Positions 1-30,640 of a stretch of DNA of 30,942 nt are shown piece after piece. The stretch spans positions 1 to 30,942 of IMG/VR virus record IMGVR_UViG_3300037883_000075; one strand, 5' to 3'. The DNA is from a virus. Both the position numbers and the translations under genes were made by a program. The notes below the pieces were generated by a model. The model worked only from the letters and a program-made list of their open reading frames with translations, was not told the DNA's origin and made no database searches. How positions within the stretch are numbered: the first letter of the stretch is position 1; each line of letters opens with the position of its first letter.

Positions 1-711
1 ATGGTGCGCATCGACATGTCGGAATACATGGAAAAGCACTCGGTTGCCCGCCTGATCGGCGCGCCGCCGGGTTATGTCGGCTACGAGGAGGGCGGCAGTC
101 TGACGGAGGCGGTGCGTCGCCGGCCCTATCAGGTGATCCTGTTCGACGAGGTCGAAAAGGCGCACCCCGACGTCTTCAACGTATTGCTGCAGGTTCTCGA
201 CGACGGCCGCTTGACCGACGGTCAAGGCCGAACCGTCGATTTCCGCAACACGCTGATCGTGCTGACCTCAAATCTCGGAAGCGAGGCGTTGGCGCGCCTA
301 CCCGAGCGAGCGGACGTGTCGGTCGCGCGGGAGGCGGTGATGGAAGCGGTGCGTGCCGCGTTCCGGCCCGAGTTCCTTAACCGGCTCGACGAGATCCTGT
401 TGTTCCGCCGGCTGTCGCGCGACGACATGAAGGGGATCGTAACGATCCAGATCGAGCGCCTGAAAAAGCTGCTGGCTGACCGCAAGATCACGATCGAACT
501 CGATGCGCCGGCGATGGCCTGGCTGGCCGACGCCGGGTACGACCCGGTCTACGGAGCCCGGCCGCTGAAGCGGGTCATCCAGCGCGAATTGCAGAACCCG
601 TTGGCGCAGTCGATCCTCGCCGGGCGCATTCCGGATGGGTCGATGGTGGGCGTCACCGCCGGGGACCGCGGTCTGGTCATCGAGGAGGCGGCGCGGGCCG
701 AGGCGGCCTGA
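1..711 (+). CDS. clpB: ATP-dependent chaperone ClpB, C-terminal part (5' end outside window)
   Basis: This is the last 236 residues of the ClpB disaggregase, a cytosolic AAA+ hexamer that works with DnaK to pull apart protein aggregates. The window opens inside the second nucleotide-binding domain, so the ATG at position 1 is an internal methionine. Visible family marks are [20 protein letters not shown] (pore-loop region), the Walker B segment [15 protein letters not shown], the sensor-1 segment IVLTSNLGS, the arginine-finger region [12 protein letters not shown], and the sensor-2 segment [11 protein letters not shown]. The reading frame is intact to its TGA. It is a host housekeeping gene and marks the left flank of the prophage; only 69 bases separate its stop from the stop of the convergent repressor gene. 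Confidence 0.96.
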
Positions 712-1874: not shown

Positions 1875-2435
1875 ATGACCCGTCTGAAATCAGGACGACA
1901 AAACCTGTCAGCAGCCTCTCAACAGGAGTTGGCTCCCACCGACGAGCGCATCCGGCAAGGGGCGGTCGAACGGCTGGACCGTCCGATCGCCGATGAAATG
2001 GGCCGTTCGGCGCGCCCTTACCGCGCCGTCGACACCTTGGCGACGATGGAACGACGGGGATCCATCACCGCGGGGATGCGCCAAGCCGCAGAAGATTTTC
2101 GCGTTCGCTTTCTTAAAGCGCAGCTCGATCCGCTGCGCGCGCTCGACTATTCGCGACCGAGGGATAGCCGAACCGGCCGGGCGAAGGACGGTGGCGAAAC
2201 GGGGTTGCGGGTCGAAAACGCCCGTCAGCATGTCTGGCGGGCGATCGTCGCGGTTGGTGGTCCGAGTTCGCCCGGCGGATCATGCCTATGGCATGTCGTC
2301 GGCTGGGAGTGCTCGCTAAAGGAATGGGCGTTCGAACAAGGCTGGAATGGTCGTCGGGTCAGCCAAGAGGCCGCTTCGGGGATACTGATCGCGGCGTTGG
2401 GTGCGCTCGAAACGCATTACCAACATGCCGCATGA
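1875..2435 (+). CDS. Early phage protein resembling the DUF6456 domain
   Basis: This 186-residue protein has a basic, poorly conserved first half and a compact second half. That half runs from a segment resembling the DUF6456 start (ITAGMRQAAEDFRVRFLKAQ, about residues 62-81) to HVVGWECSLKEWAFEQGW and a closing helix ILIAALGALETHY. The family is common in alphaproteobacteria and their prophages, often beside regulators, and its molecular role is not established. The helical C-terminal part could be a winged-helix-like DNA-binding unit. ATG 1875 was preferred to the TTG five codons earlier. It is the last gene before the strong promoter at 2458, so it could regulate the switch to late transcription; a terminase-related role is also possible. 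Both ideas are inferences. Confidence 0.6.
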   Translation: MTRLKSGRQNLSAASQQELAPTDERIRQGAVERLDRPIADEMGRSARPYRAVDTLATMERRGSITAGMRQAAEDFRVRFLKAQLDPLRALDYSRPRDSRTGRAKDGGETGLRVENARQHVWRAIVAVGGPSSPGGSCLWHVVGWECSLKEWAFEQGWNGRRVSQEAASGILIAALGALETHYQHAA

Positions 2436-2841
2436 TTGCGATAATCAGATTTTGCGATTGACAAATCCGGATTGATCTGGTATAAGACAGCGAAATTGGC
2501 AAAGCCGGCCGCAGCGATCTGGTTTGAGCCCATCGGGGAGGCCGCGGTGCCGCTCGAAGGGATCGCGAGTTTTAAACCGCCTATATTGTGCCCAGTCGAT
2601 AAATTGTAACGAGAACGAGTGCTGGCGTTTGCCAGCGACCTTGAATGATTTAATAATACGCTCCGGTGTTCATGATAGTAAAATTTTACGGCAGACGCGG
2701 TCGGTGGTGCCTTGGGAACAATCGAGTGACGCGTCAAGAAATAATGGTGAAGCTCGACACTGGCGCGGATCATTTCGCAATGCTCGCGGGCTCGCCCCGG
2801 CGCCGGCAGGAGAGCGCGGCGGCCGGTCTCGCGGAGGACGC
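2436..2841 (+). other. Promoter and long leader between the early genes and terminase
   Basis: This stretch of about 400 bases starts with the strong promoter at 2458-2486. The rest is more AT-rich than its neighbours and has no convincing gene beyond the short frame at 2672-2845. A 6-bp hairpin, GCTGGC-GTTT-GCCAGC (2621-2636), has no T-tract and so is not an obvious terminator. An open frame runs in phase with the terminase from 2524, but its composition does not look like the conserved protein, so I treat it as leader sequence. Confidence 0.45.
2458..2486 (+). promoter_or_regulatory. Strong sigma70-type promoter upstream of the terminase and late operon
   Basis: A consensus TTGACA (2458-2463), an ideal 17-base spacer and TATAAG (2481-2486) make this the best promoter match I found in the window. 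The spacer contains the perfect 10-base palindrome AATCCGGATT (2464-2473), a plausible operator for a regulator other than the repressor, whose half-site TGTTATCAT is different. Transcription would start near 2493 and run into the terminase gene after a leader of about 350 bases. Confidence 0.65.
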
Positions 2842-2845
2842 GTGA
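2672..2845 (+). CDS. Possible 57-aa ORF coupled to the terminase (small-terminase candidate)
   Basis: A frame of 57 residues runs from ATG 2672 (or GTG 2726, giving 39 residues) to a TGA that overlaps the terminase GTG as GTGA. That style of coupling recurs throughout this operon. The product is basic and small (segments GADHFAMLAGSPRRRQ and GLAEDA), with no recognised domain. A small terminase subunit is expected immediately before the large one, and no other candidate is present. Against it stand the lack of a clear ribosome site, the very short length, and the possibility that this is only the leader. It is listed mainly because of its position. Confidence 0.3.
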   Translation: MIVKFYGRRGRWCLGNNRVTRQEIMVKLDTGADHFAMLAGSPRRRQESAAAGLAEDA

Positions 2846-4206
2846 CGTGTTTGCACGCCAGCTGGCTCGCCGCGTTGCCACAGGCGGTCAGAAACAGAAT
2901 CATTGACACGCTGAACCCTGACGAAGCCCTTGCGCTGCTGTATGATTGGCCGTTCTGGGCGCGGTCCAATCAGCTGCCGCCGGAGGGTGGCTGGCGAGTT
3001 TGGCTGCTGTTGGCCGGTCGCGGGTTCGGCAAGACGCGAACCGGGGCGGAGTTGGTGCGCGCGCGGGTGGCTGCACGAACCGCGCGCCGATTGGCGCTCG
3101 TCGCACCGACCGCTGCTGATGCCCGCAGTGTCATGGTCGAAGGCGAAAGCGGCATCCTGGCGATTTCGCCGCATTGGGATCGGCCGCGCTACGAGCCCTC
3201 AAAGCGCCAATTGACCTGGCCCAACGGAGCGATTGCCACCTTTTACAGCGCGGATGAGCCCGAGCGGCTGCGCGGACCGCAGCATGATGCGGCATGGTGC
3301 GACGAGCTTACCAGCTGGCGCTATCCGGACGCCTGGCACATGCTGATGTTCGGTTTGCGCTTGGGCGAGGATCCGCGGGTCGTCGTTACCACGACACCGC
3401 GGCCAACCAAGCTGCTGAGGGCGCTGATCGAGGACCCAGCAGTCGCGGTGACGCGCGGCACAACCTATGACAACCGGCCCAACCTGGCACCGAACTTCCT
3501 CGACCAGATCATTCGCAAATATGAAGGAACCCGGCTCGGCAGGCAGGAAATCGAGGCCGAAATCCTTGATGATCTTCCGGGCGGGTTGTGGAATCGGGAT
3601 GGCATCGAGGCTACGCGCGGACGCATCGCTCCTCCCTTAGCAAGGATCGTGGTTGCGATTGATCCGGCGGTTACCTCGGGCGAAACAGCGGATGAGACGG
3701 GCATTATCGTCGCCGGCCGAGACGCGGACGGTCACGGTTGGGTTTTAGCGGATCTTTCCGGACGGTACCGGCCTTTGGAATGGGCCAAAACCGCGGTAGC
3801 GGCATATCACGCGCATCATGCCGACCGGGTAGTAGCGGAAGTCAACAACGGCGGCGAAATGGTCGAGTCGACCTTGCGGGTGATGGATCCAGATCTGTCG
3901 TTCGCGCCGGTCCGTGCGTCGCGTGGCAAAGTTACCCGGGCCGAACCCGTGGCTGCGCTCTATGAGCAGGGGAGGGTGCACCATCAGGGTGTCTTCCCGC
4001 AACTGGAAGATCAGATGTGCAGCCTGATCCGAGGCGGCTTTGACGGTACGGAAAGCGCCCGGCTGGGGTTCTCTCCGGACCGTGTCGATGCGTTGGTTTG
4101 GGCGATAACCGACCTTTTGCTGGTCCCGATTATCGGCGAAGGAATTTACGACATCTATCGTCAACTGAGCGGCCAGCTGTCCCAGCCGAGCCGCTCTAAA
4201 CCGTAA
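2842..4206 (+). CDS. Phage terminase large subunit (COG5323 type)
   Basis: This is the DNA-packaging motor that translocates the genome into the prohead and cuts it. From the GTG at 2842 it is 454 residues, the usual length. The ATPase has Walker A AGRGFGKT (residues 58-65) and Walker B with D154-E155 in DAAWCDELTSW. The RNase H-like nuclease has acidic residues D274 (VVAIDPAVTSG), E333 (VVAEVNNGG) and D416 (PDRVDALVWA). The conserved family start ASWLAALP lies at residues 6-13. I chose GTG 2842 because GGAGG (2833-2837) lies 4 bases upstream and it overlaps the preceding short frame; the upstream in-frame extension looks unlike the family. It heads the late operon downstream of the promoter at 2458. 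Confidence 0.93.
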   Translation: MTCLHASWLAALPQAVRNRIIDTLNPDEALALLYDWPFWARSNQLPPEGGWRVWLLLAGRGFGKTRTGAELVRARVAARTARRLALVAPTAADARSVMVEGESGILAISPHWDRPRYEPSKRQLTWPNGAIATFYSADEPERLRGPQHDAAWCDELTSWRYPDAWHMLMFGLRLGEDPRVVVTTTPRPTKLLRALIEDPAVAVTRGTTYDNRPNLAPNFLDQIIRKYEGTRLGRQEIEAEILDDLPGGLWNRDGIEATRGRIAPPLARIVVAIDPAVTSGETADETGIIVAGRDADGHGWVLADLSGRYRPLEWAKTAVAAYHAHHADRVVAEVNNGGEMVESTLRVMDPDLSFAPVRASRGKVTRAEPVAALYEQGRVHHQGVFPQLEDQMCSLIRGGFDGTESARLGFSPDRVDALVWAITDLLLVPIIGEGIYDIYRQLSGQLSQPSRSKP

Positions 4207-4233
4207 ACTAGCGAGTTAAGGAGGACACAGTCT

Positions 4234-4671
4234 GTGCCCCTGTTGGTCAAGGATGCGAACACGACGACGCAGTCGCTATCGACCGGGCTCGACAGCTCCG
4301 GCAATTTGGTGCCGCTGCATTCGCCCGCCGCGATCGTCGCCGGGATCGCGACGCCGGTCAGCTCAGCGGCGCCGCTGCCGGTAATCAATACCGCCGGTTC
4401 GGTGGCAAGCGACGGCAGTGGCACGGTTGTCGCCGGCGGCTCTGCACAAACGCTGTTCGGCGGGATCGTGCCGGTCAACGGCTGGCTGGTCGCCAACAAC
4501 TCCGCGGCGGCGGTCTATGTTTCCGATGTTGGCGTCGCAACATCGGGAGGAGCTTCGATCCCAATCGCGCCGGGCAGTGTATTTGCGACGCCTCCTGGAT
4601 ATAAGCCCGCGGGCGCGGTCAGCCTCTATGGCTCCGCCGCCGGTCAAGCCTACGCCGCGCGGCGCTGGTAA
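4234..4671 (+). CDS. Small structural-type phage protein, unknown function
   Basis: This 145-residue protein starts at GTG 4234 behind a strong AAGGAGG (4218-4224, 9-base spacing). It is rich in Ala, Gly, Ser, Val and Thr, has no cysteine or membrane segment, and looks beta-rich. The N-terminus reads MPLLVKDANTTTQSLSTGLD, and the middle alternates hydrophobic and small residues as in capsid decoration or spike-base proteins. I recognise the general look from alphaproteobacterial prophages but cannot name a family. Its place between terminase and the spike gene suggests a virion component or a partner of the spike. It is a good gene by ribosome site and codon pattern; the function is open. Confidence 0.65.
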   Translation: MPLLVKDANTTTQSLSTGLDSSGNLVPLHSPAAIVAGIATPVSSAAPLPVINTAGSVASDGSGTVVAGGSAQTLFGGIVPVNGWLVANNSAAAVYVSDVGVATSGGASIPIAPGSVFATPPGYKPAGAVSLYGSAAGQAYAARRW

Positions 4672-4784
4672 CGAGGTTAGTTGTCGAAAACACAACATGA
4701 ATATCGATCCATCGGTGACGTGTCCCGCGACGCAGCCACAGGTCGGCACGGCGGCGGCAATGGAGACGACCGGGGTGGGGTGCG

Positions 4785-7376
4785 ATGATGTCTCTTTCCA
4801 AGATTGCCGCGGTCGGGATCGCTGTCGGCGCCGCGTGTGCAGCGCTGACGGCCCGGTCCTTCGCCCAATCACCAGGAAATTTCTCGACCTTGTCGACGAC
4901 GGGCACTGCCACGCTCGGCGGTGACGTCCTGATGTGTTCCGGTCGCCCGTGGATCGATGTGCGGTGCAACGGTGCGGTGGGGGATGATAGCCACGACGAC
5001 ACCACGGCCATCCAGACCACGATAAACAGCGCGATCGCGAATAATTGGCCGCTTCATATTCCAGCAGGCACCTACAAAGTCACTGCGGGCCTGGTAATCG
5101 ACTACGCAAGCCAGGCGGCCAACGGCTTTCGCCTGATCTCAAATGGCGCCACGCTAGACGGCCGAGGCGTGCCGACAGGGCCCGTAATCCAAATTCAGTG
5201 CGGTGGCGGCAGCTCCGGCAGCCCTACCGGATGCTTTTATTTCAAAGAGGAAGGGTCCCTGTTTGTCAACGCCAATGCCCCTGGATACGCAGTCATCGTC
5301 GGCAAGACCGATTTCTCCGATGCGCATAATTCGATAAAGATCGATCATCTGATCGTCAATAACTCGAGCGCCAGTCCCTCGGCTGGGGCGTGCCAATTCA
5401 ACGATGTCCTGGACAGCGACATCTATGCCGTTTGCGATTCGTCGGGCGGGGCCGCGGGAATGGCCTTTGAGCAAACCCAATTCTCGCGCGTCTCCGGATC
5501 GGCAACCGCGTCGGGAACCGGTGGACGCGGTGTCGTCCTCGAAAATGGCTACAATTTTTCAAACACTTTTTTCGGACTTGACCTCGAAGTGTCGCCGACG
5601 TGCTTATCAATAACTTTTAACCACAATGGATTGAATACATTTGTCTCGCCTTATTTCGACTGTGTCACCGCGGTTAACGCGACATCGAGCACCAGCAATA
5701 TTTTGATAAATCCGAATTATGGCGGCAATGTCATCAATTTTGGGCCGAATTCGGTGGGGATGTCGGTGCAGGGAACAGGCTCACGCGCCAAGTGGATTTT
5801 TCCATCGACGGCAACTTACACGGCAGCACCGATCGACGATGGAATCTCGATTTCCAGCTACAACGCGCCGGGGGCATCGATGGTGGTTACGCTACCACCT
5901 GTCGCCAATGTGAATTCCGGCTGGTCGATGGCGGTCGCGACCGACAATGGCAAAGGAATGACCGTCGACGCACCGACCGGCAATATCGTGCTGGGGGGCA
6001 AGTTCGTGCCATCGGTGACATTGGGCGGCGGGAATTACGAATACCTGCGCGTGCAGTCCGATGGCAACAATTGGCGTATTGTGTCGTCAACCCGAAACAC
6101 ACGGCTGAACATGGGTTTTGAGCCCCCGCCCTGGCCGAGCAATTGGCTTTATCCGACGAGTTCGGGTTACGCCGCCACGCTCGGCGACAACGGCAACACC
6201 TTGTCCTCGTACGATACGTCGGGCGGGCTCACCGTCACCCTGCCCCCAACCACCAGCCTGCCCAACGGCTGGTCAATGGGGTTCGCCACCGACAACAACA
6301 AGCCGCTGACCGTCGCGGTGAACAGCACAGCCGGCGGCCGCATCATCTGGCCGGGGTCGGGTGCCTCGGCGATGTCGGTCAGCCTTGCCAACAACAGCGA
6401 AGGCGCCTACGAATATTTGACCGTGCAATATGATAGTTTGTCGGCCGGCGGCAATTTCCGCGTTGTCGATGCCACCCCGGCGACCTGGCAGGCGATTGGC
6501 GGCATCGGCTCGGCCTCGATTTCGCATTGGAGCTTTCCGTCGGGGTCGACCGCCTATGCCGCGAACCGAGCCGACAACGGCAATGTGATCTCGGCCTACA
6601 ACAGCACGGGCGCCTTTCTGACCGTGATCCTGCCCCCGACAAATACGATCTCGATGGGCTGGACGATCGGGCTTACCAACGACAACGGCAAGATCGCCAA
6701 TGTCCAGGTCAATAGCACGTCGGGCGGGAATATTCTTTATCCGGGCAGCGGGAACGCGCTCAATAATTTGTCTCTCGCCTCCGGAAATTATGAGCTGCTG
6801 GTTCTGCGCTTTGACGGCAGCAACTTCCGGGTTACGGAAGCGACGCCGGCGACGGCCGCCCTGACCGGGATGTCCGGCTCGACGCCCGACATCAACCGTT
6901 GGAATTTTCCATCGGCGGCAACTTATGCTGCGGGGCCGAGCGACAACGGCAACGCATTGTCGAGCTATAACACCTCTGCCGGGCTCACCGTAACATTGCC
7001 GGCGACGACGACCATTGCGCCCGGCTGGACCATGGGGTTCGCGACCGATGACGGAAAGCCGCTGGCCGTTCAGGTCAACGAAGTTTCAGGCGGATCGATC
7101 CTCGAACCAGCGCGAGGGGGCACCTCCACTTCGTCGATCGCTCTTGCCGCCGGGCAAAACTACGAATTCCTCCAGCTCCGTTTTGACGGCAGCAATTTCC
7201 GGATTGTCGGCGCTACGCCGCAAACGATCAATGCGCTTGGCGGTTTGATCTCGCCTGGCACGCCGGCTTCGAGCGGGGCCCCGTGTAACGTTGGGCAGCT
7301 CCAGGCCGACATCAACTATCTTTATTTCTGCGCCGCGCCGAATACGTGGAAGCGCGCGGCACTGTCTTCATTCTGA
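4785..7376 (+). CDS. Pectate-lyase-like tail spike with N-terminal signal peptide and four tandem repeats
   Basis: This 863-residue protein is probably a receptor-binding or depolymerase spike. Residues 1-28 look like a Sec signal peptide: a short basic start (MMSLSK), a hydrophobic core (IAAVGIAVGAACAALTA) and an SFAQ cleavage region. About residues 55-330 match the start of a pectate-lyase superfamily beta-helix (IDVRCNGAVGDDSHDDTTAI, then HIPAGTYKV). Residues about 336-820 hold four copies of a repeat of roughly 115-125 residues. The C-terminus (about 821-863) carries a two-cysteine end, PCNVGQLQADINYLYFC. The start is one of two adjacent ATGs with only a G-rich weak ribosome site. Odd points are its position between terminase and portal and the signal peptide, which ordinary spikes lack. 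Substrate and catalytic activity cannot be told from sequence. Confidence 0.75.
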   Translation: MMSLSKIAAVGIAVGAACAALTARSFAQSPGNFSTLSTTGTATLGGDVLMCSGRPWIDVRCNGAVGDDSHDDTTAIQTTINSAIANNWPLHIPAGTYKVTAGLVIDYASQAANGFRLISNGATLDGRGVPTGPVIQIQCGGGSSGSPTGCFYFKEEGSLFVNANAPGYAVIVGKTDFSDAHNSIKIDHLIVNNSSASPSAGACQFNDVLDSDIYAVCDSSGGAAGMAFEQTQFSRVSGSATASGTGGRGVVLENGYNFSNTFFGLDLEVSPTCLSITFNHNGLNTFVSPYFDCVTAVNATSSTSNILINPNYGGNVINFGPNSVGMSVQGTGSRAKWIFPSTATYTAAPIDDGISISSYNAPGASMVVTLPPVANVNSGWSMAVATDNGKGMTVDAPTGNIVLGGKFVPSVTLGGGNYEYLRVQSDGNNWRIVSSTRNTRLNMGFEPPPWPSNWLYPTSSGYAATLGDNGNTLSSYDTSGGLTVTLPPTTSLPNGWSMGFATDNNKPLTVAVNSTAGGRIIWPGSGASAMSVSLANNSEGAYEYLTVQYDSLSAGGNFRVVDATPATWQAIGGIGSASISHWSFPSGSTAYAANRADNGNVISAYNSTGAFLTVILPPTNTISMGWTIGLTNDNGKIANVQVNSTSGGNILYPGSGNALNNLSLASGNYELLVLRFDGSNFRVTEATPATAALTGMSGSTPDINRWNFPSAATYAAGPSDNGNALSSYNTSAGLTVTLPATTTIAPGWTMGFATDDGKPLAVQVNEVSGGSILEPARGGTSTSSIALAAGQNYEFLQLRFDGSNFRIVGATPQTINALGGLISPGTPASSGAPCNVGQLQADINYLYFCAAPNTWKRAALSSF
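5790..7245 (+). repeat. Four tandem domain repeats inside the spike gene
   Basis: Four copies begin near 5790, 6140, 6525 and 6897. Each starts with an aromatic-F/Y-P motif (WIFPSTATY, WLYPTSSGY, WSFPSGSTAY, WNFPSAATY). It continues with a DNG.-.SSY segment, a TVTLPP-type strand, a GW[ST]MGFATD segment, and ends with an aromatic G-N-F/W-R-[IV] motif. Copies 2-4 are closest to each other; copy 1 is more diverged. They look like duplicated carbohydrate-binding or trimerising beta domains. Confidence 0.85.
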
Positions 7377-7544
7377 GCGGAGAGGCCTCGACCGCAGAGA
7401 GTGCGATCATCTCGGGCCGCTGCAAGAGCCGTATCGATCTCTCGTGCTTCCGGCCGCCAACATGATGATGTCTCATGAGATTGACAGAAGCGCGAGGATG
7501 ACAATGTGGTTATCGCGCAGCTCGAAGCTTTCCGAGGTAGCGGC

Positions 7545-8885
7545 ATGACCGCGCCAAGCGGAAAGCGCACCTCTCTTGCTTCCTATAGTTGGGGCGGGTT
7601 GGGTTCACAAAACGATATCACCCAGTATCGGGAGGTCTTTCAACCCGATCAAGGGATTTTTTCGCCGGGCTATCCGCTGGTTCCGCCCGAACGCGAGCGT
7701 GTCCGGGTTTGGGATTTCCCGGTTGGTTACAATACGATTTACACACCACGCGGTTACGAGCCGACCGGGTTTCACGAACTGCGCGCGTTGGCAGAAAACC
7801 ATGACATTACCCGGCTGGCGATCGAGACCCGTAAGGATCAGATCGAAAAACTCGAATGGGAGATTAGGCCGCGCAACGAACATAAACCAACCACGGACGT
7901 GTCGGCGCGCATTGCGGCGCTGACTGAATTCTGGCGGAAACCCGACGCCGAGCAGCCATTTGGAACTTGGTTACGAGAGTTGCTCGAAGATCTGCTGGTG
8001 TTGGATGCGCCGTGTCTCGAAATGCGACGCAACCGTGGCGGTGACATTATCGGTCTCGACGTTGTCGACGGTTCGACGATCAAAGTATTGGTCGATGATA
8101 CCGGTCGGCGCCCTGGGCCGCCAGCGCCAGCTTATGAACAGGTCATTCATGGCCGCCCGTGGCGACTTCTGACCGCGGATGAGCTGCTTTACCTGCCTCG
8201 AAACCGACGGCCGCATAAGGCGTATGGGTTCGGGCCGTGTGAACAGATCGTCATGACCATCAATATCGGCTTGCGCCGCCAACTCATGCAGCTGCAGCAC
8301 TTCACCGAGGGCAACGTCCCGCCCGGCCTGTTGAATGCTCCGGACGGCTGGAATGCGGAGCAGATCCGCCAATTCCAGGAATGGTTCGACTCCATCCTCG
8401 CCGGCAACACGGGCAGCCGGACCCGGTTAATTTGGGCGCCGACTGGCGCAAGATACCAAGCGTTTAAAGAGGCGCCGTACAAGGACGAGTTCGACGAGTG
8501 GTTGGCTCGGATCGTCTGCTACGCCTTTTCCCTGCCGCCCACGGCGTTCACCCCGCAAGTGAATCGTGCGACGGCCCAATCCGCGCAGGAGACGGCGCTC
8601 GAGGAGGGCCTTGCTCCGCTGACCGGCTGGGTCAAACGCCTCGTCGACGGCGTCATACAGGACCGTATGGGGCACGCGGACCTCGAGTTCGTCTGGTCAG
8701 GCGCGAGACCCACTGATCCAAAAGATCAGGCATCCATACTCGACATCTACGTCAAGGACGGAATCTATACTTTGAACGAGGCGCGCGACATCCTCGGGTT
8801 GCCGCCGACTGAAGGCGGCGACCGGCCGATTTTTCTAACCCCAACAGGCCCGATTCCACTGAGGCCGAGCCCAACATTGGATTAG
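7545..8885 (+). CDS. Phage portal protein
   Basis: The portal is the dodecameric ring at one capsid vertex through which DNA enters and leaves. This copy has 446 residues from ATG 7545, chosen because CGAGG (7533-7537) lies 7 bases upstream; an in-frame GTG at 7506 has no better site. Typical portal segments are RLAIETRKDQIEKLEWEIRP (clip/wing start), LRELLEDLLVLDAPCLEM, the ADELLYLPRNRRPHKAYGFG region, GLRRQLMQLQHFTEGNVPPG (long stem helix), and the C-terminal FSLPPTAFTPQVNRATAQSA. It is separated from the terminase by two accessory genes and from the protease by a 5-kb fibre cassette, whereas these head genes are usually adjacent. Confidence 0.92.
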   Translation: MTAPSGKRTSLASYSWGGLGSQNDITQYREVFQPDQGIFSPGYPLVPPERERVRVWDFPVGYNTIYTPRGYEPTGFHELRALAENHDITRLAIETRKDQIEKLEWEIRPRNEHKPTTDVSARIAALTEFWRKPDAEQPFGTWLRELLEDLLVLDAPCLEMRRNRGGDIIGLDVVDGSTIKVLVDDTGRRPGPPAPAYEQVIHGRPWRLLTADELLYLPRNRRPHKAYGFGPCEQIVMTINIGLRRQLMQLQHFTEGNVPPGLLNAPDGWNAEQIRQFQEWFDSILAGNTGSRTRLIWAPTGARYQAFKEAPYKDEFDEWLARIVCYAFSLPPTAFTPQVNRATAQSAQETALEEGLAPLTGWVKRLVDGVIQDRMGHADLEFVWSGARPTDPKDQASILDIYVKDGIYTLNEARDILGLPPTEGGDRPIFLTPTGPIPLRPSPTLD

Positions 8886-9075
8886 CAGATCACTCCCATT
8901 AGAGGCTGATCCGCGCGAGTTCCGGGTCTATTCGAGCGGGGAGCATCCCGGCCGAAAGTAGCTGGCACCAAGCCCAGTCTGCGGCGCTACTCCTCAATCG
9001 CGATGCTTTTAAACGATGCTGCTTTTTGCGGCCGCACGCGCCCTGCTGTCAAAGACGAGAAATTAAGGAGCCAAT

Positions 9076-10437
9076 ATGAGCGTTCTTCCGAGCGACCTCG
9101 TTGCCTATGGCTCGGCCTACATGCCGGAGGCCGATGGAACTACTGTTGGCGGCGCGGTCGATTTTTCGCGCCGCGTCGCCTTCTACGACATCACGCCGGC
9201 CGGTACGATCAACTTCGTCTCGTCGAGCGCCACCGATACGCACGTTCAAATCCAGGTCGCGGGGCGCGACAGCTCCGGAGTGGTCCAGACCCCGGCGGCG
9301 GTCACGCTCAACGGCAACACGCCCGTCAGCGGCTCGCAGAGCTTCGAGCGGCTGCTCTACGGCGTCGTCTCCGGCGCTTCGCCGAACGGGCCGCTTTCCG
9401 CCCCGACCGGGGGCGCCGATACGACGCTCTCGGCGAACATCACCAGTTCCGCCACCTCGATGACGGTTACGGCGGACACCAATTTCCCGTCCTCCGGCAA
9501 CTATTATGTCGCGGTCGATACCGGAGCCAGCTTCGAGATCATGCAGGTGACCGGCGGCCAGGGCACGACCACCTGGACCGTGACGCGCGGCGTCTCCGGG
9601 TTTCAGGGCGGCGTCGCGCATTCTTCGGGCGCCGCGGTCTATTTGATGCCGGTCGGCGACGTGGCGGGGATCAGCAACATCGCGGTGATCTCCGGGCACA
9701 CCGCGCAGACTGGTGCAGCCAGCCACAGCGGTACGACGCCAGCGCTGATGAAATTGCAATCGGGCGACGGCGCCAGCGTCTCGCCCGGCCAAATCATTCA
9801 GATCACCAACAACAGCCCGTCCGGCGTCGAATACCAGCTCCGCATGATTATCGCGACTTCGGGCTACGGCACCGACGTGGTGGCGATCAATCGCGACTGG
9901 TCGACGATCCCGACAAACGCGACAACCTACAGCGTGTTTCAAGGGATGCTGTTCGAGACAGGCTTTGCCAGCTCGGGGGCCTCCTATGGCGACCCCAACC
10001 CGGTGACCTCGGTGATCCGCTGCTTCTCGACCTCGGCCGCCGACGTGCCGACCGGATCGGCGCGATACTTTTTCGAGAAGGTATTTGTCGTCAACAACAA
10101 CACCGCAACCGCCCTCACCGGGGCGCAGATCGAGATCGCCAGCGAAACCCCGACCCTGCCGTCGGGGGCATTGCTCGACGCGGCGCTGACGACAGCGCTC
10201 AACGACACCAACACCTGCAACCCGCGGCAGCAGGCGTCGTCCTTTGTGGCGACCGGATCTGGCGCGTTTGTCACCCAGCCCGCCTTTATCAGCGTGCCGT
10301 CGCCGGGCAACCTGCCGTCTGGTGCGGCGCCCAACGCCATCGGCGCGCAAGGCGTGTGGCTGCGGCTGACCCTGCCGGCCGGCACCGCCGCCTACAAGGG
10401 GTCGGCCGACCTGCGCACGCAGGGGACGACGACCTGA
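9076..10437 (+). CDS. Beta-rich structural phage protein (fibre or decoration candidate)
   Basis: This 453-residue protein has a strong TAAGGAG (9064-9070) 5 bases before its ATG, which suggests high expression. It has no signal peptide or membrane segment and is dominated by Ser, Thr, Ala, Gly and short hydrophobic strands (for example SSATSMTVTADTNFPSSGNY followed by YVAVDTG). A segment near residues 130-200 resembles the small beta module often found in fibre and baseplate proteins (TTLSANITSS, then TWTVTRGVSGFQGG). Near the C-terminus ANAIGAQGVWLRLTLPAGT-like residues suggest a repeated jelly-roll surface domain. No enzyme motif is seen. It opens the cassette between portal and protease; a capsid-surface or fibre protein is the best guess. 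Confidence 0.6.
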   Translation: MSVLPSDLVAYGSAYMPEADGTTVGGAVDFSRRVAFYDITPAGTINFVSSSATDTHVQIQVAGRDSSGVVQTPAAVTLNGNTPVSGSQSFERLLYGVVSGASPNGPLSAPTGGADTTLSANITSSATSMTVTADTNFPSSGNYYVAVDTGASFEIMQVTGGQGTTTWTVTRGVSGFQGGVAHSSGAAVYLMPVGDVAGISNIAVISGHTAQTGAASHSGTTPALMKLQSGDGASVSPGQIIQITNNSPSGVEYQLRMIIATSGYGTDVVAINRDWSTIPTNATTYSVFQGMLFETGFASSGASYGDPNPVTSVIRCFSTSAADVPTGSARYFFEKVFVVNNNTATALTGAQIEIASETPTLPSGALLDAALTTALNDTNTCNPRQQASSFVATGSGAFVTQPAFISVPSPGNLPSGAAPNAIGAQGVWLRLTLPAGTAAYKGSADLRTQGTTT

Positions 10438-10468: not shown

Positions 10469-11146
10469 ATGACGTTTATCTCAGTCCTAGCCACGCCCGG
10501 CGCGCAAGCGTTCGACACGGACACGGTGTTGACGCAAGCACAGGCACCGGCGCTCGCCGCGCAAGGTTACGTCTGCGCTATCCGCTATGTCAGCCGCACC
10601 AGCTCGAACGCCGCGGGCGACATTTCCGCGAGTGAGGCGCAGACGATCATCGAGGCCGGCCTCGGGCTGATGCTGGTGCAGCATTGCCCGCCGGCCTATT
10701 GGACGCCGACGCCTGCCGTCGGCACGCAATACGGGACGGCTGCCGCGGCGAATGCGTCGAGCGTCGGGTATCCGCGGGGTGCTACCCTCTGGCTTGATCT
10801 CGAAAACATGCGGCCCGGCTGCGGCGATCGGGCGATCATCGCCTATGTCAATTCGTGGTGCCGCGCGGTGGCGGCGGCAAGATATTTGCCGGGTCTCTAC
10901 TTCAGCGCCGATTGCCCGCTGACCTCGGGTCAGATTTATCTCGACCTGATCGTGACGCAATACTGGCGCTCGCTCAGCGCCGACACGCCAGCGGTCGCGG
11001 TACGCGGCCCCTGCATGCAGCAGTTCGTGCAATACGGGCAGGTCGCCGGGATCGACATCGACCGCGACGTGATCATGGCCGACGCGCTTGGCGGCCTGCC
11101 GTCATGGGCGATCAATCAGCCGACCCTGGCGATCGACGCGATATGA
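10469..11146 (+). CDS. DUF1906 (Rv2525c-like) glycoside-hydrolase-like protein
   Basis: This 225-residue protein matches the DUF1906 glycoside-hydrolase-like TIM-barrel family. Marks are AFDTDTVLTQAQ near the N-terminus (first strand acid), CAIRYVSR (about 36-43), LWLDLENM (acidic strand end, about 107-114), LPGLYFSA, TQYWRS, and the closing VQYGQVAGIDIDRDV. Family members act on or bind cell-wall sugars, though catalysis is unproven in most. In a phage it could help digest the wall during entry or lysis. It lies in the fibre cassette, 31 bases after the previous stop, and its stop overlaps the next start (ATGA), so it is co-translated with structural genes rather than with the putative lysis genes at the right edge. 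Confidence 0.75.
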   Translation: MTFISVLATPGAQAFDTDTVLTQAQAPALAAQGYVCAIRYVSRTSSNAAGDISASEAQTIIEAGLGLMLVQHCPPAYWTPTPAVGTQYGTAAAANASSVGYPRGATLWLDLENMRPGCGDRAIIAYVNSWCRAVAAARYLPGLYFSADCPLTSGQIYLDLIVTQYWRSLSADTPAVAVRGPCMQQFVQYGQVAGIDIDRDVIMADALGGLPSWAINQPTLAIDAI

Positions 11147-16735: not shown

Positions 16736-18235
16736 ATGAGTTCGATTACCCAGGAATCGCTGGAGCTGTTGAAGAGAGCTCTGGCCACGCCGGACGACAC
16801 GCTCACCAAATCGATCTCGACCGCGACCGGCCTCGTCGCCTACGACCTGCAGGCACCCGCGAAAAATCTCTATCCCTTTGTCACCCCGATTCGCAACGTC
16901 ATGCCGCGAGTAGGCGGCGGCACCGGCACCGCGACCAATTGGCGCCAGGTCAATGCGATCATCGGCTCCGGCTTCGACGCAATGGGCTGGGTTCCGGAAG
17001 GTCAACGCTCGGGCCAGATGTCGTATTCGACCTCGAGCAAGTCTGCCACCTTTGTCACTATTGGCGAGGAGGACGCCGCGACCTTTGAAGCGATCTCGGC
17101 CGGTCGCGAGTTCGAAGACATCCAGGCGCGGATGACTTTCCGGCTATTGCAAAAGATGATGCTGAAAGAGGAGATGGCGATCCTCGCTGGAAACGCCTCG
17201 CTGATGCTGGGTACCCCAGCGACCCCGACCCTGTCGGCATCAGGCAGCGGTGCTATCCTGCCCGCTGGAACGTATTTCGTCAAGGTTGTGGCCCTGACCC
17301 TCGAAGGCTATCAGAATTCCAGCGTGGCGGCCGGCGTTGCCACAACCAAGACCATCACCGGCGTCGACAACAAGACCTTCGCGCTCAACGGTGGCTCATC
17401 GAACATCAGCGGTGAGGCGAGCCAGGCAGTAACACTCGGCCAGACCTTGTTTTGCAGCGTCGCCCCGATCATGGGCGCCGTCGCCTATGCCTGGTACGTC
17501 TCGGCCTCGACCGGAACCGAGACATTGCAGGCGATCACGACGATCAACAGTCTCGCTGTTTCGGCGCCGCTCAGTACCGGAAACCAACCTCAAACCGCGA
17601 TTACAGGGGATAGTTCGGCCAATCCGAACTATGCTTATAACGGCCTGCTGACGACCGCGCTCATGGCCGGCTCGAACGCCTACGTCAACACTTTGTCGAC
17701 CGGCACCCCGGGAACCGGCACAACCTTGACGCCCTCGGGCCGGGGCTCGGTGGTCGAAATCGACACAATGTTCCAGACGATGTGGAACAATTTCGAGCTG
17801 TCGCCGACCGTCCTTTACGTAAATTCTCAGGAGCTGAAGAACATCACCACCAAAGTGCTGTCGAACAGCTCCGGGCCGCTTCTGCGTTACGACACTCCCG
17901 CCGACGGAAGCGAGGGCGAGTATCAGCTGACGGCGTCCGGGACGGTGCAATTCTACTACAATCCGTTCGCGATCTATGGCGGGTTGCGCATCCCGATTAG
18001 AATTCACCCGCGCGTCCCGCCCGGCACGATCATCGGCTGGGCCGAGAACCTGCCGATCCAGTATCAGTCGAACGAAGTGCCTAACGTGGCCGAGGTCAAG
18101 ACCCGGCAGGATTACTATCAGATCGACTGGCCGATCGTCACACGCCAGCGCCAAGTCGGTGTCTACGCCGAAGAGGTGCTGGCCGTCTATGCTCCGTTCG
18201 CAATGGGCGTCATCACCAACATCACCAACGGCTGA
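16736..18235 (+). CDS. Major capsid protein with an inserted Ig/FN3-like domain
   Basis: This 499-residue protein follows GGGAGGA (16722-16728) 7 bases before its ATG, one of the strongest ribosome sites here, as expected for the main shell protein. The shell fold is split. The N-terminal part (about 1-155) includes NLYPFVTPIRNVMPRVGGG, WVPEGQRSG, FVTIGEEDAATFEA and LLQKMMLKEEMAILAGN. The C-terminal part (about 290-499) includes TMWNNFELSPTVLYVNSQEL and RIPIRIHPRVPPGTIIGWAE. Between them, about residues 158-290, lies a beta-sandwich-like insertion (AGTYFVKVVALTLEGYQNSS, GAVAYAWYVSAST). It follows the protease, as in HK97-type head modules. The capsid call is firm from context; the exact capsid family is less certain. 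Confidence 0.88.
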   Translation: MSSITQESLELLKRALATPDDTLTKSISTATGLVAYDLQAPAKNLYPFVTPIRNVMPRVGGGTGTATNWRQVNAIIGSGFDAMGWVPEGQRSGQMSYSTSSKSATFVTIGEEDAATFEAISAGREFEDIQARMTFRLLQKMMLKEEMAILAGNASLMLGTPATPTLSASGSGAILPAGTYFVKVVALTLEGYQNSSVAAGVATTKTITGVDNKTFALNGGSSNISGEASQAVTLGQTLFCSVAPIMGAVAYAWYVSASTGTETLQAITTINSLAVSAPLSTGNQPQTAITGDSSANPNYAYNGLLTTALMAGSNAYVNTLSTGTPGTGTTLTPSGRGSVVEIDTMFQTMWNNFELSPTVLYVNSQELKNITTKVLSNSSGPLLRYDTPADGSEGEYQLTASGTVQFYYNPFAIYGGLRIPIRIHPRVPPGTIIGWAENLPIQYQSNEVPNVAEVKTRQDYYQIDWPIVTRQRQVGVYAEEVLAVYAPFAMGVITNITNG

Positions 18236-24815: not shown

Positions 24816-25666
24816 AGCCGGCCTCACCGGCCCTCATCGCGCTGCTCAACTCGTCCGAGCAGTTCATCATGGCCGACCTCTATACATTCACTCTGGTCGG
24901 CGGCGGAGTGCATCGCTATTCCGGCGGCACGACGGCGATCACGGATACGAACCGTAACCTCTTCGCCCTGGGACCAAAATTCGAGCGCTCAAAGACGCAT
25001 GTCGTGATTGGCGTGCAGGTCGATGAGTTGGACGTGAAGATCTATCCCGAGCCAAGCGACATGCTGGGCTCGACGCCGTTTTTGCAAACCGCCTGGACTG
25101 GGCAATTCGATGGGGCGGTATTGCAGGTCGAGCGCGCCTTTATGTGGCCTAGCTATGGTGCCGTGGTCGGGACGGTGGTGATGTTCGCCGGGCGGATTTC
25201 GGACATCGATTGCAGTCGCACGGGTATCGACATGAAATGCCGGTCGCATCTAGAGCTCTTGAATATCCAGATGCCGCGGCGGTTGTGGCAGCCGACCTGC
25301 AACCACGTTTTTGGCGACGCAATGTGCCAGTTCGACCGGGTGAGCCTCGCCGTCACCTTCGCGGCCGGGTCGGGCACGACGCAGACGCAGATCGTCGGCG
25401 TGCCGAACACCTCGACGCCGTTCACCCAGGGGACGATCGTCGGGCTCTCCGGCGCCAATGCCGGCGAGACTCGCACGATCGCCAATTTCATGGCGGGGCA
25501 ATATGCCCAGGTAAAGCTCGCGTTTCTCGCCCAGCCTGATATCGGCGACCAGTTTCAGCTGTTGCCGGGTTGCGACCGCAGCCTTGGCACCTGCACCAAC
25601 ACGTTTTCGAACCAGATCCATTTCGGCGGGATGCCCTACATCCCGGCGCCGGAGAACGCGGTATGA
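24812..25666 (+). CDS. DUF2163 / phage BR0599-type baseplate hub protein (GTA gp13-like)
   Basis: From GTG 24812 (GTGA overlap with the previous stop) the product has 284 residues, the usual size. The N-terminal DUF2163 part includes ALIALLNSSEQFIMADLYTF and VHRYSGGTTAI. The C-terminal part has the BR0599-type cysteine pattern: C163 and C172 (TCNHVFGDAMCQFDR), C254 and C261 (GCDRSLGTCTNTFSNQIHFG). Four such cysteines could bind a metal or iron-sulfur cluster, which has been described for the hub of a gene transfer agent; here it is inference. It normally sits next to the NlpC/P60 gene, but two extra genes intervene. Confidence 0.9.
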   Translation: MKPASPALIALLNSSEQFIMADLYTFTLVGGGVHRYSGGTTAITDTNRNLFALGPKFERSKTHVVIGVQVDELDVKIYPEPSDMLGSTPFLQTAWTGQFDGAVLQVERAFMWPSYGAVVGTVVMFAGRISDIDCSRTGIDMKCRSHLELLNIQMPRRLWQPTCNHVFGDAMCQFDRVSLAVTFAAGSGTTQTQIVGVPNTSTPFTQGTIVGLSGANAGETRTIANFMAGQYAQVKLAFLAQPDIGDQFQLLPGCDRSLGTCTNTFSNQIHFGGMPYIPAPENAV

Positions 25667-25794
25667 CGCCACCGGCCGACGCCGTCATCGTCGATTTCGA
25701 TCCGCACATTGTGTGGGCAATCGCCGCCCTGTCGATCGCCATCGTCGCATTGTTTCTGCTGCTCGCAGCCGTCGCAGGAGAAAATCGGAAATGA
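25663..25794 (+). CDS. 43-aa single-pass membrane mini-protein
   Basis: This tiny gene starts at ATG 25663, overlapping the hub gene stop (ATGA), and its stop overlaps the next start in the same way. The product begins MTPPADAVIVDFDPHIVW and continues as a hydrophobic helix of about 22 residues (AIAALSIAIVALFLLLAAVA) ending GENRK. The acidic N-terminal part and basic end predict an N-out, C-in orientation. It could be a small holin, an anchor for the glycosyltransferase-like neighbour, or a phage-specified membrane factor. The tight overlaps on both sides support a real gene. Confidence 0.6.
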   Translation: MTPPADAVIVDFDPHIVWAIAALSIAIVALFLLLAAVAGENRK

Positions 25795-26831
25795 GCCCAA
25801 CCCTGCACGTCTTCACGGCGCGGTTCAACCCGCTGCGTTGGCAGGCGCCGCAGCGACATTTTGTCGATTGGGCGCAGGCGATGCGCGACCTCGGCGCCGA
25901 TGTCACGGTAGTCGAATGCGCCTATGGCGAGACGCCATTCGCGTGCGAGATGCCCGGCATCGTGACGCATATCGGGGTGCGCGCCGACAGCTGGGCGTGG
26001 ACCAAGGAATGCCTCTTGAACCTCGGCATTCAGCGCCGGCCGGAGGCGAAATACATTTGCTGGTCCGACAGCGACGTGTTCCCGCGGCGCAACGATTGGG
26101 CCGCGGCAACGATCGACGCCTTGCAGCACTATCGCATCGTGCAGCCGTGGGATGCCTGCTACGACCTCGGTCCCGATGACGCGCACGGCGACGTGTGGCG
26201 GTCCTTCGCGCGTCAATACGTGCATGGGCATCCGATCGTCGTCGGCGAGGGACAGGACTTCCACAAATTCTGGAAGGGCGGCGGCGGCCAGTTCGACTAC
26301 CCGCATCCCGGATATTGCTGGGCCACCAAGCGCGAGACGCTGAACCTGATCGGCGGGCTCTTTGAATATGCCGGCATGGGCGCGGCCGATCATCATCAGG
26401 CCGTGTCATTGCTCGGCCAGGTCACGAAGTCCTTTCCACGGGCTGTCGCGCCGACTTATCGGGCGATGCTCGAGGCGTGGCAGAGCCGCGCGCGGCACGC
26501 GGTCAACGGCCGCGTCGGCTATGTGCCCGGCACGATCGAGCACCGCTTTCACGGCGCCAAGGCCAATCGCCAATACTGGGACCGCTGGCAGATGTTCCTG
26601 CGCCATGGCTTCGACCCCGTAACCGATCTGAAGCGAAACACCTGTGGCGTCCTCGAATTTGCCGGCAACAAGCCGGCTCTCGAGCACGAGTGGGATCAGT
26701 ACCTGCGGATGCGGCGCGAGGACGACAACGCCGCGCCAGCGACGTTCCGCCGACCTGAGCCGCCGCACCGCCCGATCAAGCCGCCGCCGGCGCCCCCGGT
26801 ATCGCATCCGCATCGGCGCGATCATCGATGA
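25791..26831 (+). CDS. Glycosyltransferase-like protein (GT-A type) inside the tail tip operon
   Basis: From ATG 25791 the protein has 346 residues. The first 210 have the look of a phage-encoded GT-A family: LHVFTARFNPLRWQAPQRHF, DLGADVTVVECAYGETPFAC, WAWTKECLLNLGIQRRPEAK, then YICWSDSDVFPRRNDW with the metal-binding D-S-D at 93-95. Also visible are the acceptor-side PHPGYCWATKRETLNLIGGL and GMGAADHHQAVSLLGQ. The rest is basic, ending in a proline-rich tail (RRPEPPHRPIKPPPAPPVSH). It probably transfers a sugar from a nucleotide-sugar, either to a virion protein or to host surface sugar. The donor and acceptor cannot be told. Start and stop overlap both neighbours (ATGA), so it is co-translated with hub and peptidase. 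Confidence 0.72.
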   Translation: MSPTLHVFTARFNPLRWQAPQRHFVDWAQAMRDLGADVTVVECAYGETPFACEMPGIVTHIGVRADSWAWTKECLLNLGIQRRPEAKYICWSDSDVFPRRNDWAAATIDALQHYRIVQPWDACYDLGPDDAHGDVWRSFARQYVHGHPIVVGEGQDFHKFWKGGGGQFDYPHPGYCWATKRETLNLIGGLFEYAGMGAADHHQAVSLLGQVTKSFPRAVAPTYRAMLEAWQSRARHAVNGRVGYVPGTIEHRFHGAKANRQYWDRWQMFLRHGFDPVTDLKRNTCGVLEFAGNKPALEHEWDQYLRMRREDDNAAPATFRRPEPPHRPIKPPPAPPVSHPHRRDHR

Positions 26832-30253: not shown

Positions 30254-30640
30254 ATGTCGAGATTCTGGAATTTCGTCGACAGGCGCGCGATCATCGTCAA
30301 TGATGGAATCGTCGCGACCGTAACACTGGTATTGATGAGTTTCCTCGCGATTTGGTTGGGTGGGTGCGCCCAAATAGGCCAGGTCGTGGCAGACGATGCA
30401 CAGAGTGCAACGACCCTTGCCGCGGCCGTCGGGGACTCTGCGGGAGTCGCCTGCTGGCCGGTGCTAGAGGCAACTGGAAACGCCATTTCGGCGGCGGGCG
30501 ATAAGCCGGGTATATTGGTTGCAATCGAGGCGAAGCGCGCGGTGCAATTAGCGCTGCAGAACACGACTTGCCAGCCAGTCTGGGCCGGAGTGTTGGCAGA
30601 GTTGCTCAAGGCCACCCCGGTAGCGCCTTTTGTTCCTTGA
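30254..30640 (+). CDS. Small lipoprotein-like or membrane protein, possible lysis role
   Basis: From ATG 30254, with GGAGG (30240-30244) 9 bases upstream, the product has 128 residues. A basic start (MSRFWNFVDRRA) is followed by a hydrophobic segment (GIVATVTLVLMSFLAIWLGG) ending at C38 in LGGC, which fits a lipobox, so it may be a lipoprotein. The rest is Ala-rich with two more cysteines (ACWPVLE and TTCQPVW) and a helical middle. Its stop overlaps the next start (TGATG), and the next protein is an inner-membrane coiled coil; the pair resembles a spanin or lysis cassette in outline. The in-frame ATG at 30137 has a worse site. Family unknown. Confidence 0.5.
   Translation: MSRFWNFVDRRAIIVNDGIVATVTLVLMSFLAIWLGGCAQIGQVVADDAQSATTLAAAVGDSAGVACWPVLEATGNAISAAGDKPGILVAIEAKRAVQLALQNTTCQPVWAGVLAELLKATPVAPFVP

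Follow-up and report, generated by a model that had tools for sequence, protein, structure and literature searches.

A spike-like beta-helix protein with a conserved predicted Sec signal peptide in the late gene cluster of a soil alphaproteobacterial prophage lineage

The stretch of DNA analysed here (the window) is a linear IMG/VR record of 30,942 bases. At its left end, a host-type clpB gene precedes a repressor-like gene and the terminase gene, after which come a 145-aa ORF, the gene of a protein that we call the spike, the portal gene, adhesin-like genes, a protease gene, and capsid and tail genes (Table 1). The true start of the terminase is probably later than 2524, with homology beginning around residue 85-105. 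The 145-aa ORF, which has no match in Pfam or PHROG and a signal-peptide score of 1.52 on the scale described below, occupies the interval between terminase and portal in 32 of the 42 records that have both genes; the spike lies there in 40 of the 42, the exceptions being L070 and L128. A preliminary description of this DNA had placed the spike between terminase and portal and had called this unusual. The placement holds, except that the 145-aa ORF intervenes on the terminase side, and it is a fixed trait of the lineage. In Brevundimonas phage Polewnik, the nearest cultured relative found (portal 45% identical), the terminase and portal genes overlap and no gene lies between them. From this overlap we infer that the spike gene entered a head operon whose genes were coupled and has been retained since.

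Table 1. Positions of the spike, its parts and its neighbours in the window
Feature	Position	Strand	Remarks
Terminase large subunit	2524..4206	+	PF03237 4.1e-27, PF17289 2.6e-18; conserved upstream neighbour of the spike
145-aa ORF without signal peptide	4234..4671	+	Conserved between terminase and spike
Spike, 863 aa	4785-7376	+	ATG start
Predicted Sec signal peptide, residues 1-27, cleavage SFA/Q	4785..4865	+	Conserved site; score 4.54
Short mature linker, residues 28-55	4866..4949	+	Mostly low-confidence or unstructured in the model; sequence conserved
Cysteine pairs C51/C61, C139/C150, C203/C217, C273/C293	4935..5663	+	
Right-handed beta-helix, residues ~56-335	4950..5789	+	PF12708; model pLDDT mostly 85-97
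Invariant Glu229 and Glu253	5469..5543	+	Alignment columns; strands 224-229 and 248-252 in the model
Four repeats of ~115-125 aa each, gp9/gp10-like adaptor fold (model)	5790..7235	+	
C-terminal module with C834/C849, and stop codon	7236..7376	+	Alignment, cysteine columns
Portal protein	7533..8885	+	PF04860 6.2e-27; phrog_2662 6.4e-76; start uncertain

Within the head module, an Rv2525c-like glycoside-hydrolase domain protein (PF08924, 1e-22) without a signal peptide is encoded at 10469-11146 and is a possible endolysin. The putative major capsid protein (16736-18235) has as its sole match a PHROG of unknown function, phrog_13692 (7.1e-99), and matches no Pfam family. Glycosyltransferase-looking ORFs that differ between relatives occupy one region among the tail genes, both in the window (25584-26831) and in loci L179 and L180 (records G424 and G423). 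A small ORF at 30257-30640, in which a lipobox-like LGGC follows a hydrophobic stretch, is possibly an outer spanin. At another locus, L114, spike and portal lie within one open frame (3530-7570). A spike-portal fusion was rejected here; the frame before the portal is a jumbled, non-homologous stretch, which makes a frameshift near the end of the spike the likelier and probable origin of the single frame.

Position 4785 is the earliest usable start codon of the spike frame. The stop-to-stop frame is just 22 codons longer, and these upstream codons contain no start codon (as listed for L002, whose locus is identical to that of the window). The encoded N-terminus reads MMSLSKIAAVGIAVGAACAALTARSFA, followed by QSPGN after the predicted cleavage point; it looks like a normal Sec signal peptide, with an SFA/Q site and no lipobox, and the structure model has a helix at residues 4-20 in this region. 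Such a peptide, with its SFA end, had been proposed in the preliminary description at a length of 28 residues, which is off by one because Q28 is the +1 residue.

N-termini were graded by a home-made score of charge, hydrophobic core and the residues at -3 and -1, with a threshold of 3; in every gene family the start codon could be chosen with equal freedom, and starts were picked partly by this score. By it, the spike has the features of a Sec and signal peptidase I substrate, namely a basic n-region, a hydrophobic core and a small-x-Ala site. Its value of 4.54 leads the genes of the window, followed by the lipoprotein-like ORF at 30257 with 3.33 and by the rest with at most 1.83. On the same home-made scale, 52 of 53 distinct spike relatives score at least 3 (median 4.10), as do 0 of 77 portals, 0 of 47 capsid proteins, 0 of 47 proteases, 0 of 25 members of family g9076 and 1 of 49 of the 145-aa ORFs. 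The peptide is kept among the relatives, so that homologues starting after residue 28 are not seen. Shuffled spike N-termini reach the threshold in 18%, and this counts against the explanation that we favour below.

The sequence of the peptide differs strongly among relatives, while its charge, core and cleavage site persist. In 59 relatives, the site is AxA/Q (32), TxA/Q (17), SxA/Q (9) or GxA/Q (1), and the peptide is common to relatives as distant as 34-36% identity. We conclude that the predicted signal peptide is a trait of the whole spike family.

The monomer model of the full spike (mean pLDDT 80.5) consists of the helix at residues 4-20, a disordered linker, a beta-helix at residues ~56-335, four beta repeats and a hairpin. 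The match to PF12708 reaches 28.4 bits against a cut-off of 27 and covers residues 56-109 only; a sequence search of the PDB with the spike returned a sole, marginal match, to pneumococcal PfbA. At the level of structure, the modelled beta-helix matches alginate epimerase/lyase, AlgE4, the Sf6 tailspike, polygalacturonases and phi29 gp12 at Z ~25, and the predicted fold is one shared with polysaccharide-active enzymes and tailspikes. The pectate-lyase-like beta-helix and the repeats of the preliminary description are thereby borne out, with four repeats found, and its name of tail spike stands on the level of the modelled fold only. Glu229 and Glu253 sit at the ends of like strands in neighbouring turns of the modelled helix and are candidate active-site carboxylates.

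The repeat region, modelled apart as residues 446-863, matches the N-terminal region of CBA120 TSP4, the Pa223 capsid spike, T4 gp9 and gp10, with Z 8-11 over ~100 residues. The last 38 residues match phrog_17312, a 'tail protein' (3.1e-10), and in the L016 group the C-terminal module is swapped for a different cysteine-bearing one. Tailspikes usually carry a virion anchor N-terminal to the beta-helix. In the spike model, no virion-binding domain is present between the signal peptide and the beta-helix, just the linker of 28 residues. The tailspikes of Sf6 and HK620, the CBA120 TSPs and phi29 gp12 resemble the spike in their right-handed beta-helix (Z 22-25), and CBA120 TSP4 has gp9/gp10-like domains, as do the spike repeats. 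In contrast to these tailspikes, the spike has a conserved predicted Sec signal peptide where they carry an N-terminal virion-binding domain; its adaptor-like repeats follow the helix, its gene lies between terminase and portal, and it has conserved disulfide-type cysteines.

The mature window spike contains ten cysteines. Among 36 aligned relatives, the pairs 51/61, 139/150 and 273/293 are invariant, and C203 and C217 are both present in 19 sequences and both absent in 17. The column pairs 203/217, 702/721 and 834/849 are filled or empty jointly, with the exception of the two most divergent rows at 702/721. Each variable pair changed just about twice on the tree; because these changes are too few, co-variation was dropped as proof of export and parity over many families was used in its place. 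A preference for even numbers of cysteines is an established mark of extracytoplasmic bacterial proteins (PMC7678975). Of 49 mature spike sequences, 46 have an even number of cysteines and 3 an odd one; for portals, the numbers are 16 even and 61 odd. Beyond the spike, about 50 further ORFs in 25 families, encoded in the same region of the relatives, score as signal-bearing (Sec, some Tat-like), a family number that is approximate because ORFs were called mechanically and starts were chosen partly by the signal-peptide score. Counts are even in 22 of these 25 families, odd in 2 and zero in 1; in 40 signal-less families they are even in 11, odd in 21 and zero in 8 (even versus odd, signal-bearing versus signal-less, Fisher p = 2e-5). 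Parity appears to be stronger evidence of export than the joint presence or absence of pairs, and the paired, even cysteines suggest that the mature part of the spike suits an oxidising compartment. Together with the conserved properties of the peptide, they lend weight to the export suspected in the preliminary description.

These data bear directly on the view that the protein is an ordinary tail spike assembled in the cytoplasm, whose N-terminal hydrophobic stretch arose by chance or serves in virion attachment. Such a spike would account for a beta-helix fold common with tailspikes and for the phrog_17312 match at the C-terminus, but not for even, paired cysteines or for a signal peptide kept, with its cleavage site, in all but one of the 53 relatives scored. 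We consider it very improbable.

The setting of the gene points to late expression. In many relatives, the spike overlaps its upstream or downstream neighbour by one base, and the median dN/dS of mature spikes, 0.28, indicates purifying selection. A sigma-70-type scan of the + strand from 2400 to 9100, a kind of scan that is weak for this bacterial group, found no promoter-like site near 4785; all sites found lie within 2417-2946, upstream of or at the start of the terminase ORF. The spike is without the features of a moron, having no promoter-like site of its own and no scattered distribution, and by this sequence evidence is a core member of the late cluster. Lysogenic conversion, in which a quiescent prophage would make a surface enzyme or adhesin that alters the host or excludes other phages, would be in keeping with an export signal on a secreted-enzyme fold. 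Its late-cluster place, the overlaps with neighbours, the lack of a separate promoter-like site in the sigma-70-type scan and the presence of the gene in nearly all members speak against it. A surface gene expressed in the lysogen from a separate promoter, as the preliminary description had entertained, is therefore disfavoured, and we regard conversion as rather improbable.

The conserved export signal and the disulfide-type cysteines together argue that the spike probably leaves the cytoplasm and is freed at lysis, and is not an ordinary virion spike. The explanation that we favour, and hold to be fairly probable, is that the spike, a phage-derived protein with a spike-like beta-helix, is made late, exported by Sec, folded with disulfides, kept in the periplasm, freed at lysis and active on polysaccharide. 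What sequence analysis supports is a signal peptide kept across relatives, cysteines of the disulfide type, a fixed position among the late genes and a beta-helix fold, and we infer the cleavage, the timing, the periplasmic stay, the release by lysis and the action on polysaccharide. The spike would be translated with the head proteins and late genes, late in induction, exported through Sec and cut by signal peptidase I after A27. It would then fold with disulfides in the periplasm and wait there until cell lysis sets it free. Once freed, it would most likely act as an unattached depolymerase or lectin that cuts or binds polysaccharide of the surface or matrix, and so open the matrix for progeny or keep progeny off debris.

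The modelled C-terminal repeats resemble virion adaptors of the gp9/gp10 type and the Pa223 capsid spike, which argues for a link to the particle and against the explanation just given. Owing to these repeats, the chief rival stays alive: a virion spike that makes a detour, being exported, acquiring disulfides in the periplasm and docking on the head or tail once the contents of periplasm and cytoplasm mix at lysis. Docking would also suit a nearly invariant gene in the head module beside the portal, and C-terminal modules that are swapped as in receptor-binding proteins. However, the adaptor-like domains come after, not before, the beta-helix, and we know of no tailed phage with an exported spike that docks on particles after lysis. 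On balance, we judge docking to be unlikely, though well worth keeping in mind.

The favoured explanation, in which the spike is exported and then freed, can be compared with known systems. Shiga toxin is the textbook exported phage product of a late operon, released by lysis. The spike would be like it in its export signal and disulfides, in being a prophage late-operon product and in its release by phage lysis; unlike it, the spike is no toxin, has a spike-like fold inside the head module and is nearly invariant in its lineage. WceF of Pantoea stewartii is a tailspike-like trimeric beta-helix glycosidase with a Tat export signal that acts on exopolysaccharide (PMC7949094). Like the spike, it combines a beta-helix of the tailspike type with an export signal, but it belongs to a bacterial exopolysaccharide operon rather than to a phage late cluster, and uses Tat rather than Sec (PMC7949094). 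The RcGTA protein TspA, described in a preprint, is a biofilm-degrading beta-helix spike that can work as a free depolymerase once detached (PMC13420450). It shares with the spike the beta-helix and an origin in a phage-like element of Alphaproteobacteria, and differs in being delivered by the particle and in having a beta-sandwich domain as its N-terminal region; the text of that paper nowhere mentions 'signal peptide' or 'periplasm' (PMC13420450). The proposed steps therefore have precedents, in the exported tailspike fold of WceF and in the reported action of TspA off the particle. Among titles and abstracts of the open-access literature, we found no report of a signal-peptide-bearing spike in the head operon of a tailed phage.

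A search of 84,980 genomes (one per species) gave 10 spike homologues, all in MAGs and nearly all labelled Alphaproteobacteria, and phage and plasmid collections gave no homologue. Matches occur in 10 of 39 genomes from the family to which one carrier belongs, as against 2 of 385 across the class of that carrier. All 10 homologues adjoin genes of the same element. The spike is carried by a prophage lineage of uncultivated soil Alphaproteobacteria. The preliminary description had also raised the capture of a host secreted protein. A recent capture by the prophage of a pectate-lyase-like protein would explain the similarity of fold to secreted host enzymes, yet it is at odds with the company of all 10 homologues from the 84,980 genomes, with C-terminal repeats of the phage adaptor type and with a signal peptide found in relatives down to 34-36% identity, and we give it almost no credence. 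A candidate host ancestor of the spike, L151, was rejected; it is 36% identical over ~100 residues only and has no signal peptide.

The PF00589 integrase is absent from 23 of 24 records, which may be fragments (the window and G422-G444, except G438); a phage integrase occurs solely in the record of L128. Two MAG contigs with host flanks (L171-L176) hold elements of ~24-28 kb in which inspection by eye found no integrase-like or replication ORF. Host flanks differ between clades of the element. The clpB flank beside the repressor is common to the window (1-711), L002, L003, L004, L041 and L149, which are diverged members, and L033, L134 and L142 have a common metallo-hydrolase-like flank. Integrase-less elements of this kind are reminiscent of GTAs or domesticated prophages, a likeness that is no more than suggestive. 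Tentatively, the lineage may be an element that lacks an integrase, is perhaps domesticated or GTA-like, and encodes in its late cluster an exported set that every lysing cell would release with the particles. Besides the core spike, such a set would take in ~25 families that can replace one another, made up of spikes, adhesins and enzymes and bearing Sec or Tat-like signals.

In soil viromes, it is usually left undecided whether pectate-lyase-like phage genes encode virion spikes or secreted auxiliary enzymes. A conserved signal peptide and even, paired cysteines point to the exported kind from sequence alone, and the same test fits viromes in general. Should the exported set prove real, these prophages would give uncultivated soil Alphaproteobacteria an additional exoproteome at lysis, with an attack on polysaccharide unlike that of particle-borne spikes and of detachable ones such as RcGTA TspA.

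Among the companion families are a GDSL lipase (PF13472, 2.7e-14) and a protein with a weak alpha/beta-hydrolase match. Three signal-peptide families have no homologue in the phage collection, and two families searched against viral contigs have few relatives, mostly on contigs of the existing set. At three loci (L069:5108-8008, L068:5105-8008 and L066:2057-4969), four tail- or adhesin-like ORFs lie between spike and portal, each with a predicted export signal of its own, three Sec and one Tat-like. The Tat-like signals at these loci (RRRFM, RRRFL and RRYLL) are borne by a protein with an FNGSSQYIW-like stretch. Second beta-helix proteins with signal peptides are encoded downstream of the portal at L032:8096-9598, L131:8470-10434 and L133:5921-7885. 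A 93-kb record (L181-L182, G427) has a second tail-like gene set upstream of the terminase, with more signal-bearing spike-like ORFs.
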